Source: a bacterium (lineage in GTDB: Bacteria > UBP18 > UBA7526). Taken from it: a stretch of 49,434 bases of DNA. Shown here in pieces: positions 9,637 to 49,434 of the stretch (position 1 is its first letter; every line of letters starts with the position of its first letter). The stretch lies in NCBI GenBank assembly GCA_030615855.1, contig JAUWYL010000001.1, positions 203,008-252,441 on the forward strand, written 5' to 3'. The position numbers were made by a program, and so were the translations under genes. The notes below the pieces were generated by a model. That model searched no databases, was not told where the DNA came from, and was given only the letters and a program-made list of their open reading frames with translations.

Positions 9637-9649
9637 TATGTGTTATAAT
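9622..9649 (+). promoter_or_regulatory. sigma70-type promoter for rpsO
   Basis: TTGCAT (9622-9627) and TATAAT (9644-9649), a perfect -10, are 16 bp apart; the ribF stop lies between them. The predicted start is near 9656. The -10 falls inside the first hairpin unit of the rpsO leader. The rimP promoter uses the same TTGCAT -35 and a related GATAT...TGTG spacer. Confidence 0.7.
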
Positions 9650-9840
9650 AAAGACGCCTTCGCTTCGCGAAGAACTTTGTTATTCCAGCGCGTCTTTATT
9701 AGACAGGGCAAGTAGAACGCGCTGTTATAATAAGGAAGCCTCCGCTTCCAGCGGAGAACCTTGTTATTCGGGCTTCCTTAGTAGAGGAGGCAAGCCTGCT
9801 TGTCGGCAGACAGGCGAAGCGCGTCGTCATAATAATTTAA
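9641..9840 (+). repeat. tandem hairpin units in the rpsO leader
   Basis: Unit 1 starts at 9641 and unit 2 at 9723, both with TGTTATAATAA. In unit 1 AATAAAGACGC (9647-9657) pairs with GCGTCTTTATT (9690-9700), enclosing CTTCGC/GCGAAG (9658-9672). In unit 2 TAAGGAAGCC (9731-9740) pairs with GGCTTCCTTA (9771-9780), enclosing CTCCGC/GCGGAG (9740-9756). AGAAC(T/C)TTGTTATTC is kept in both. Unit 1 is followed by AGGGCAAGTAGAACGCGCT (9705-9723), which matches the core of the 138-bp repeat. A further hairpin, CCTGCTTGTC/GGCAGACAGG, is inserted near 9795-9814. Confidence 0.8.
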
Positions 9841-9847
9841 ATATAAT

Positions 9848-9913
9848 GCCGTTGCTGGGAGAATCGCCTCCCCACCGATTCTCTCGGCAATTGGCAGCGA
9901 GTAAGAAAGGGGG
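9848..9913 (+). promoter_or_regulatory. possible S15 autoregulatory hairpin/pseudoknot before rpsO
   Basis: A long hairpin pairs 9848-9865 with 9877-9895, with GAGAATC/GATTCTC perfect at the top. Its loop contains TCCCC (within 9866-9876), which can pair with GGGGA of the Shine-Dalgarno region at 9910-9914. Known S15 proteins bind their own mRNA leader, in E. coli as a pseudoknot covering the ribosome binding site. The analogy is inference. Confidence 0.4.
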
Positions 9914-10191: not shown

Positions 10192-10285
10192 TTGGCGCCA
10201 AGTCGCCAAAGAAATCACCAAGTCGCCAAATTTTGGCGCCTTTGCGGATCTTTTGTGTTTTAGCGTTTAGCGTTTTGGCGTTACG
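10192..10285 (+). repeat. CCAAGTCGCCAAA repeats between rpsO and pnp
   Basis: CCAAGTCGCCAAA occurs twice (about 10198-10210 and 10227-10239), flanked by two GGCGCC sites (about 10195 and 10245), and is followed by TTTAGCGTTTAGCGTTTTGGCG. Left and right parts are partly complementary (CGCCAAA with TTTGGCG). There is no clean hairpin with a T-run, so readthrough into pnp is likely. AAAGGAG just before the pnp ATG is its ribosome binding site. Confidence 0.55.
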
Positions 10286-10297
10286 AAAGGAGAAGAG

Positions 10298-48132: not shown

Positions 48133-48602
48133 GCAAGCTAAAGACATTAGATGAATTAATAAAAATAGTTGAGGGGCTGAAGAAAGAGGGCAAAAAGATC
48201 GTCTTCACCAACGGCTGCTTCGATCTCTTACACCTTGGCCACATAAGATATCTAAAAGAGGCGAAGAAGCTGGGCGACATCTTGATCATTGGTCTGAATA
48301 GCGATACATCGGTGAGATCCTTAAAAGGTCCTAATCGCCCTTTGGTTAAAGAGGAGGATAGGGCAGAGATTTTAAGCGCTTTAGAAGCCGTAGATTACAT
48401 TGTAATCTTTAACGAACTGACTCCCAAGAATTTAATTGACAAAATCATTCCCAATGTCTTGGCTAAGGGTGGGGACTGGAGAGAAGAAGAGGTAGTGGGA
48501 AGGGATACGGTAGAAGCCCATGGGGGAAAAGTAATTATCATCCCGGAGGTCAAGGGCTATTCAACGAGCGCCCTCATCAATAAAATAAGATTCCAGGGAT
48601 GA
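48129..48602 (+). CDS. hldC: heptose 1-phosphate adenylyltransferase
   Basis: Cytidylyltransferase-like enzyme making ADP-D-glycero-beta-D-manno-heptose (RfaE domain II). FTNGCFDLLHLGHIRYL has the HxGH nucleotide site; GLNSDTSVRSLKGPNRP and the PNVLAKGGDWREEEVVG segment are diagnostic. It is 157 aa, a stand-alone enzyme. It overlaps hldA by ATGA. The final epimerase HldD is not seen in the window. Confidence 0.94.
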   Translation: MSKLKTLDELIKIVEGLKKEGKKIVFTNGCFDLLHLGHIRYLKEAKKLGDILIIGLNSDTSVRSLKGPNRPLVKEEDRAEILSALEAVDYIVIFNELTPKNLIDKIIPNVLAKGGDWREEEVVGRDTVEAHGGKVIIIPEVKGYSTSALINKIRFQG

Positions 48603-48616
48603 GCAGGAAGAATAAC

Positions 48617-48690
48617 GGTTACTACGTCCCGATATATCGGGACTGTTACTATCGGTTACTACATCCGCCTAAAGTCGGATTGTTACTATC
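48617..48690 (+). repeat. two 37-bp tandem units with covarying stems before kdsB
   Basis: Unit 1 is 48617-48653, unit 2 is 48654-48690; both have GGTTACTAC at the left and TGTTACTATC at the right. The 18-bp centres are GTCCCGATATATCGGGAC (a perfect palindrome) and ATCCGCCTAAAGTCGGAT. At three paired positions both bases changed in a compensated way. Confidence 0.8.
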
Positions 48691-48705
48691 AGTTGCTTTT
48701 GTAAC

Positions 48706-48775
48706 CATTAGTAACCGTTAGTAACCCCTGCCTGCTGAAGCCTTGGCGTAGGCAGGCTTTAGTAACTGTTAGTAA
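48706..48775 (+). repeat. GTTAGTAAC repeats with inserted GC-rich hairpin
   Basis: GTAACCATTAGTAACCGTTAGTAAC on the left and TTTAGTAACTGTTAGTAAC on the right flank a hairpin pairing CCTGCCT (48727-48733) with AGGCAGG (48750-48756). No T-run follows; it lies about 30 bases before the kdsB ribosome binding site. Confidence 0.65.
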
Positions 48776-48799
48776 CTATCTTTTTAGAAGGAGAAATTT

Positions 48800-49434
48800 T
48801 TGAGAGTAATTGGTGTCATTCCCGCAAGGTATGGCTCAACGAGATTTCCTGGGAAGCCCTTAGCAGATATCTTAGGAAAGCCCATGATCCAGCATGTCTG
48901 GGAGAGGGCATCTCAGGCAAAGACTTTAGGAAAGGTGATTATTGCTACAGATGACGAACGTATCCTGAAAAAAGCAAAAGGGTTCGGGGCAGAAGCAGTC
49001 TTGACTTCTCCTTCCTTGTCTTCTGGAACAGAGAGGGTGGCAGAGGTGGCAAAAGGTTTAGATGTTGAGATTGTGGCTAATATCCAGGGAGATGAGCCAT
49101 TACTCAAGGCAGGAGCCATTGACGAAACCGTCAAGTCCCTAATCGACAATCCCGAAATTCCTATAGCCACCTTAGCCTATAAAACGACTAAGAAGGAGGA
49201 GATAGAAGACCCCAATGTGGTTAAGGTAGTCTTCGATAAGGATAATTTCGCCCTCTATTTCTCGCGCTCCTTGATCCCTTATTCAAAAGGATGCTTCTTA
49301 CCGTTTTACAAACACATTGGTCTCTACATCTATAGAAAAGAGTTTCTAGCGAAACTCGTTCAATTAGAGCCAAGTCCTTTAGAAAAAATAGAGGGCCTGG
49401 AACAGTTGCGCGTTCTGGAGAGTGGATATAGAAT
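48800..49434 (+). CDS. kdsB: CMP-Kdo synthetase, 3' end outside the window
   Basis: Activates Kdo as CMP-Kdo for lipid A glycosylation. The frame from TTG 48800 reads LRVIGVIPARYGSTRFPGKP, the KdsB nucleotide-binding opening, then WERASQAKTLGKVIIATDD, SGTERVAEVAKGLD and ANIQGDEPLL, HIGLYIYRKEFL. About 211 codons are present and no stop is reached, so roughly 35-40 residues are missing. The TTG start is well supported: AAGGAG at 48788-48793, six bases upstream, and no ATG fits. Its presence supports a Kdo-lipid A outer membrane. Confidence 0.93.
   Translation, partial: MRVIGVIPARYGSTRFPGKPLADILGKPMIQHVWERASQAKTLGKVIIATDDERILKKAKGFGAEAVLTSPSLSSGTERVAEVAKGLDVEIVANIQGDEPLLKAGAIDETVKSLIDNPEIPIATLAYKTTKKEEIEDPNVVKVVFDKDNFALYFSRSLIPYSKGCFLPFYKHIGLYIYRKEFLAKLVQLEPSPLEKIEGLEQLRVLESGYR

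Follow-up and report, generated by a model that had tools for sequence, protein, structure and literature searches.

Two paired-stem units lie between ribF (stop codon 9634-9636) and rpsO (start 9916) in the 1.38-Mb, 45-contig genome of an isolated bacterial lineage (G000), and raise the question of whether they belong to rpsO or to something else. We analyzed the surrounding window, a stretch of 49,434 nucleotides (G000:C30:203008-252441), together with five family-level relatives (G001-G005) and then other families of the domain. Sampled stretches totaled about 771 kb, the window included. An initial annotation had described two units 82 bp apart, and every string it quoted was recovered in place. 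TGTTATAATAA occurs at 9641 and again at 9723, and AGAAC(T/C)TTGTTATTC is common to both units. The outer arms of unit 1 (TAATAAAGACGC/GCGTCTTTATTA, 9646-9657/9690-9701) are paired at 12 of 12 positions, and those of unit 2 are TAAGGAAGCC/GGCTTCCTTA (9731-9740/9771-9780). The inner arms read CTTCGC/GCGAAG in unit 1 and CTCCGC/GCGGAG in unit 2. The features of the locus are:

9621, + strand: −35 element TTTGCA of the rpsO promoter
9644-9649, + strand: native rpsO −10 box TATAAT, extended (TG upstream); TGTGATATAAT is kept in repeat-free relatives
9647-9701, + strand: long unit 1 (AATAAA, outer arm GACGC, hairpin 1, guide-like TTTGTT, outer arm GCGTC)
9651-9834, + strand: inserted block relative to the empty sites in G001 and G002, with left flank ATA and right end AATA; both boundaries are accurate to a few bases only
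9658-9672, + strand: hairpin 1 of unit 1, CTTCGC(TTC)GCGAAG, with GAA as the − strand triloop
9676-9681, + strand: guide-like TTTGTT of unit 1, complement of AATAAA at 9647-9652
9702-9726, + strand: linker hairpin 1, GACAGGGC...GCGCTGTT, a covarying component of the long unit
9729-9783, + strand: long unit 2 (AATAAG, outer arm GGAAGCC, hairpin 1, guide-like CTTGTT, outer arm GGCTTCC)
9740-9756, + strand: hairpin 1 of unit 2, CTCCGCT(TCC)AGCGGAG
9760-9765, + strand: CTTGTT of unit 2, complement of AATAAG at 9729-9734
9784-9834, + strand: linker hairpin 2, ending CATAATA, its loop broken by the unrelated palindrome CCTGCTTGTCGGCAGACAGG (about 9795-9814)

Both units fold strongly. DNA folding z-scores for units 1 and 2 were −5.6 and −5.5 on the + strand and −4.8 and −5.2 on the − strand, equaled by none of 200 shuffles, while RNA folding gave −5.0 and −3.3. 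Three aspects were absent from the initial annotation: each unit is followed by a covarying linker hairpin, the unit exists in two further forms, and the T/C position itself covaries. The palindrome CCTGCTTGTCGGCAGACAGG is missing from the G005 copy of linker hairpin 2. It resembles CCTGYCTGTCGGCAGACAGG copies elsewhere in the genome, which likewise lie within repeats.

The units proved to be members of a dispersed family. Within G000, blastn returned 11 matches to the two units. As stem lengths vary, copies were counted using a sequence-only model (R1) of the core AATAAR...hairpin...GAACYTTGTT, and the resulting counts of 50, 49, 35, 2, 29, and 44 copies in G000-G005, respectively, rest on that model. 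Copies occurred in both orientations, mostly in intergenic DNA and often in head-to-tail arrays; 28 of 35 fell outside predicted ORFs, though the DNA is 85% coding. Three layouts share the core. The short layout is AATAAGAACC-hairpin 1-GAACCTTGTT-hairpin 2-AATA, the long layout (as at rpsO) adds outer arms and a linker hairpin, and in the third the right part is longer and closes with GACGTAATA. Read on the + strand, an element thus follows its target AATA with AR-rAnC, hairpin 1 with its variable arms, GAAC, and YTTGTT, then hairpin 2 (short) or outer arm plus linker hairpin (long), and finally AATA. Outer arms GACGC/GCGTC define the subfamily of unit 1 and GGAAGCC/GGCTTCC that of unit 2. Both arm combinations recur elsewhere, where each unit has its closer relatives. 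The two units are therefore neighbors of different descent, and not a tandem duplication that diverged in place. In G005, one array (L181, G005:C18:2682-2975) consists of four long units head-to-tail with a period of 84 bp and identical cores.

We searched more widely with the exact pattern AATAAGRAN{0,2}CCTN{3,18}AGAACCTTGTT. It was present in 8 of 290 genomes, all six family genomes among them, at up to 31 copies per genome; the reversed control pattern had no match in the same 290. In the GTDB contig collection the exact pattern occurred in at least 107 stretches. The matches listed represented 49 assemblies, named as Clostridia/Oscillospiraceae, Patescibacteria (Shapiro-, Nealson-, Blackburn-, Berkel- and others), Desantisbacteria, Sedimentibacter, and others. 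The exact pattern had no match in IMG/VR or among plasmids. No Rfam 15 covariance model matched the units at gathering or permissive thresholds, even with E up to 5. A search of the open-access literature returned no description of the core letters or of similar repeats in candidate phyla, and the element is apparently undescribed so far.

The claim that arms differ but stay paired held for both units and for the family as a whole. Covariation was evaluated in two equal-length sets of 19 and 21 sequences, giving scores of 0.295 (0.071 shuffled) and 0.333 (0.107 shuffled), respectively. None of 500 shuffles scored as high, and the signal collapsed when alignments were slid. Two-sided changes in these sets were almost all within the inner stem. 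Among units picked by a pattern that leaves the interior free, 67% of possible consecutive inner pairs were formed, compared to 8% in shuffles. The outer stem varied in the same manner; for example, the pair at column 6 was C-G in 6, A-T in 15, and T-A in 9 of 32 long units. Even the core covaries: AATAAG occurred with CTTGTT 149 times and AATAAA with TTTGTT 14 times, with 3 exceptions (p = 2e-17, overstated because the sequences are related). The T/C difference between the two units is accounted for as one half of this covarying pair, AATAAR...YTTGTT. At the left end YTTGTT is paired with AATAAR, and at the right end AATA offers it a second possible partner.

Mismatch and loop types suggested which strand folds. 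A folded + strand should tolerate G-A mismatches and G-T pairs within it. On the strand shown, however, stems contained 15 C-T or T-C mismatches and no G-A or A-G mismatches, although about half of the C-T cases belong to one hairpin type and represent fewer independent events. G-T (8) and A-C (6) did not differ. Of 63 triloops, 36 were TNC and none was GNA, and a C-G pair closed most of them; as with the mismatches, these counts come from related copies and exceed the effective sample. Read from the complementary strand, the mismatches become sheared G-A and the triloops C(GNA)G. Both the GNA class of triloops and the GNNA class of tetraloops are stable in DNA. Hairpin 2, TCGCTTCGCTC, reads GAGCGAAGCGA on the complementary strand and contains GCGAAGC, and d(GCGAAGC) has been reported to form a DNA mini-hairpin of extraordinary stability. 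The RNA GNRA rule fits few of the four-base loops. The strand was assigned from mismatches and loops because nearest-neighbor energies gave mixed signs: RNA parameters favored the − strand for hairpin 1 and the + strand for hairpin 2, and DNA parameters the reverse, so that DNA energies for hairpin 1 count against folding of the − strand. Orientation relative to GC skew showed no replication-strand bias, which also counts against a single-stranded DNA model, as lagging-strand transposition predicts such a bias. On balance we infer that the complementary strand is probably the one that folds and acts as single-stranded DNA. Of the fold first proposed as RNA or cruciform DNA, the selected fold is retained, and DNA of the strand opposite to that shown fits better than RNA.

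Comparison of filled and empty sites suggested mobility. Relative to its relatives' empty sites, G000 carries a 184-bp insert (9651-9834) directly 3' of the native rpsO −10 box; the empty site in G001 and G002 reads TATAATTA/TTTAAAT (slashes mark junctions). G005, which belongs to another genus, has an array at this very point. There, unit 1 and the adjoining linker are almost identical to those of G000, unit 2 carries another inner hairpin, and one short unit is extra. Two histories would explain this shared position: two hits on a preferred site, or one old insertion followed by several precise losses. Filled/empty pairs between congeners were found in both directions (L147, L163, L166, L175, and L180). 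For example, the filled site CAAAATGAGATA/AGAACC...TTAAAATA/GGAGG (L147) corresponds to the empty site CAAAATGAGATAGGAGG (L059), and CCATTATA/AGGAAGCC...CGAAATA/GGGAAA (L180) to CCATTGTAGGGAAA (L050); L163 and L175 behaved in the same way. These junctions place insertion 3' of (A)ATA and define the element end as ATA, and the flanking (A)ATA could be a short target duplication or could have come with the element. As insertions differ between congeners, element activity post-dates species divergence.

The same comparisons separate the array from the rpsO promoter and leader. The −10 region TGTGATATAAT is present in repeat-free G001, G002, and G003, and TGTGATATACT in repeat-free G004. The promoter is therefore older than the insertion, and the element landed beside it. 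Of the earlier suggestion that a repeat supplied or captured a promoter, the landing at the promoter is upheld and the supply of its −10 box is not. Nor do the units constitute the rpsO leader structure, as G001, G002, and G004 have both promoter and leader hairpin without any repeat, while G003 keeps the promoter and lacks both repeat and hairpin. In G000 the conserved leader hairpin (about 9849-9901) is intact downstream of the array and is a likely S15 autoregulatory leader. The array probably rides along as a transcribed part of the rpsO 5' untranslated region, a passenger that could alter rpsO expression. The leader hairpin itself, TGCCGTTGCTGGGAGAATCG...CGATTCTCTCGGCAATTGGCA, has about 21 pairs and is shared by every family genome except G003, five of six in all; it had no Rfam match and no two-sided changes on folding.

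Taken together, our sequence comparisons suggest that the units are probably copies of a small, REP-like, non-autonomous mobile element with single-stranded DNA hairpins, and not a regulator of rpsO. We weighed this against other readings. One is that the unit is a cis-acting structured RNA belonging to rpsO, serving as leader, terminator, or processing signal, and has spread to other genes. Its strong RNA folds, terminator-like matches on scanning, and position within the rpsO 5' untranslated region agree with such a role. It is nonetheless very unlikely given four close relatives without the repeat, of which all keep the promoter and three the leader hairpin, the lack of an Rfam match, and strand biases favoring the opposite strand. 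The orientation of copies was also unrelated to the direction of flanking genes (10 versus 12), which argues against a transcript-level role. A second alternative concerns only the arms, which could be continually re-made by fold-back (template-switch) copying, such that pairing is mutational rather than selected. Intermediates were indeed very few, with 1285 Watson-Crick, 20 G-T, and 60 other inner pairs overall. Neighboring, otherwise alike units of one array often bear quite different yet perfect inner hairpins, and the hairpin of unit 2 at rpsO differs wholesale between G000 and G005, a possible replacement. Insertions shared by descent, however, changed one arm at a time. In G000/G002 (C30:82.7 kb and C30:161.6 kb) and G001/G004, CTCCCCGA became CTTCCCGA with GGGGAG to GGGGGG, CTGCCC became CTGCTC, and CTCCCC became CCCCCC. 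These changes mostly left G-T pairs, and none was carried into the opposite arm. At C30:82.7 kb the element differs by ~5% between G000 and G002 and its flanks by 24-29%. Together with the one-sided changes, this argues for selection on the fold and against continuous rewriting, and supports selection as what keeps the arms paired. Fold-back copying also does not predict the strand-biased mismatch types, and we regard it as improbable. Of the two origins first offered for the paired arms, selection is thus the one retained.

The remaining alternatives concern how the element moves. A canonical REP/BIME/REPIN family, moved by a REP-associated tyrosine transposase (TnpA-REP/RAYT) whose gene was lost or missed in the assemblies, would account for short, palindromic, mostly intergenic, presumably non-autonomous repeats in many copies and arrays with strand-specific hairpins of the single-stranded DNA type. 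REPs are regarded as non-autonomous and mobilizable by TnpA-REP (PMC8266576), and Y1_Tnp was present in 21 of 38 carrier genomes tested. Within G000-G005 (completeness 53-94%) no Y1_Tnp (PF01797) was found, even though insertions differ between congeners. The six family genomes also yielded no Y2_Tnp, no TnpB above cut-off (one sub-threshold TnpB-like match in G004), and no reverse transcriptase above cut-off. Y1 genes of other carriers were not flanked by the unit, which lay within 1.5 kb at 3 of 30 loci. In the core, moreover, no hairpin foot bears a GT[AG]G or CGTC tag. Instead, one strand has GAAC/AGNGCC and YTTGTT at the feet of hairpins 1 and 2, and the opposite strand has GGTT and CTTATT. 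Many long units have GTAG just before the linker hairpin, and others have ATTA there. REP sequences have been described as species-specific (PMC6006769), whereas this core is kept across phyla. Two hairpins around one YTTGTT and variable arms are further differences, although CGTC REPs, like the present element, have no known dedicated transposase (PMC3733652). A canonical REP family therefore seems unlikely. Far less probable still is a stem-loop array of a TIGR-Tas (box C/D-like guide RNA) system. Such arrays share tandem units with stem-loops that are "variable but consistently palindromic", in gut and parasitic bacteria (PMC12045711). However, Nop/Tas (PF01798) was found in none of 20 carrier genomes and in none of the six family genomes, the copies here are dispersed and also single, and constant inter-hairpin segments with variable stems, without variable spacers, are the reverse of a spacer array.

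Under the preferred reading of a REP-like mobile element, folded single-stranded DNA of the complementary strand would be processed. With sheared G-A pairs and GNA loops, the arms would make almost perfect hairpins and be free to change while pairing is maintained. A putative guide, YTTGTT, would select the AATA cleavage or target site, as in IS200/IS605 and REP systems. Cleavage would occur after AATA with the hairpins inside, and one guide between two hairpins could serve both ends. In the window, one such array came to lie immediately 3' of the rpsO −10 box. The element appears to resemble IS200/IS605 ends in lying 3' of a short AT-rich target, having the same short sequence at its 3' end, and containing an internal sequence that base-pairs with putative cleavage sites. 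Unlike IS200/IS605 elements, it has no tnpA or tnpB, and a single guide-like sequence sits between two hairpins. Mitochondrial double-hairpin elements and similar hairpin repeats are likewise small, mobile-looking double hairpins; compared by description, the present element differs in being bacterial, with a fixed core and ATA-flanked insertion. More tentatively, and with low confidence, we propose that it may represent a widespread and so far undescribed class of bacterial mobile element, a single-stranded DNA double hairpin (~50-60 nt in its short form) in which one internal guide (YTTGTT) pairs with AATA, the cleavage or target site, at both ends. It would have neither its own transposase nor a known HUH enzyme in the host, and would be moved by an enzyme yet to be identified or an ordinary host enzyme, with arms that turn over quickly and a core kept across phyla.

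Other known classes were rejected. A MITE with terminal inverted repeats would have ends that mirror each other, which AGAACC... and ...AATA do not. A Tc1/IS630 MITE would match the TA at the junction, but again the termini are not inverted. Integron attC sites carry RYYYAAC/GTTRRRY boxes, which are lacking here.

Bacterial palindromic repeats are usually called host-specific in sequence, and here the same core occurs in Clostridia, Patescibacteria, Desantisbacteria, and an isolated lineage. This cross-phylum core, two hairpins sharing a guide-like sequence, and the lack of a recognized transposase in the host family are the distinguishing traits. With only one strand carrying G-A mismatches and GNA loops, and with many filled and empty sites, the family offers a natural data set for strand-specific hairpins, and its proposed guide/target pairing rule is open to testing. 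The locus also cautions against reading every set of paired stems in a ribosomal-protein leader as regulatory.

Other repeats were observed alongside the family. Between rpsO and pnp (10197-10290), repeated CAAGTCGCCAAA and TTTTGGCG-type motifs vary among relatives. Further along the window (48587-48808), an insert of GTTACT/CGGTTACTA-type repeats occupies a position where G001 has two short units (L148). After short units one often finds TTATTGAAGTTCCGATRCCTYAAAATA and ACGGCG-CGCTTCGCTCTC-CGCCGT (L053:11484-11605, L078, L080, and others), the latter being another hairpin module with its own end.
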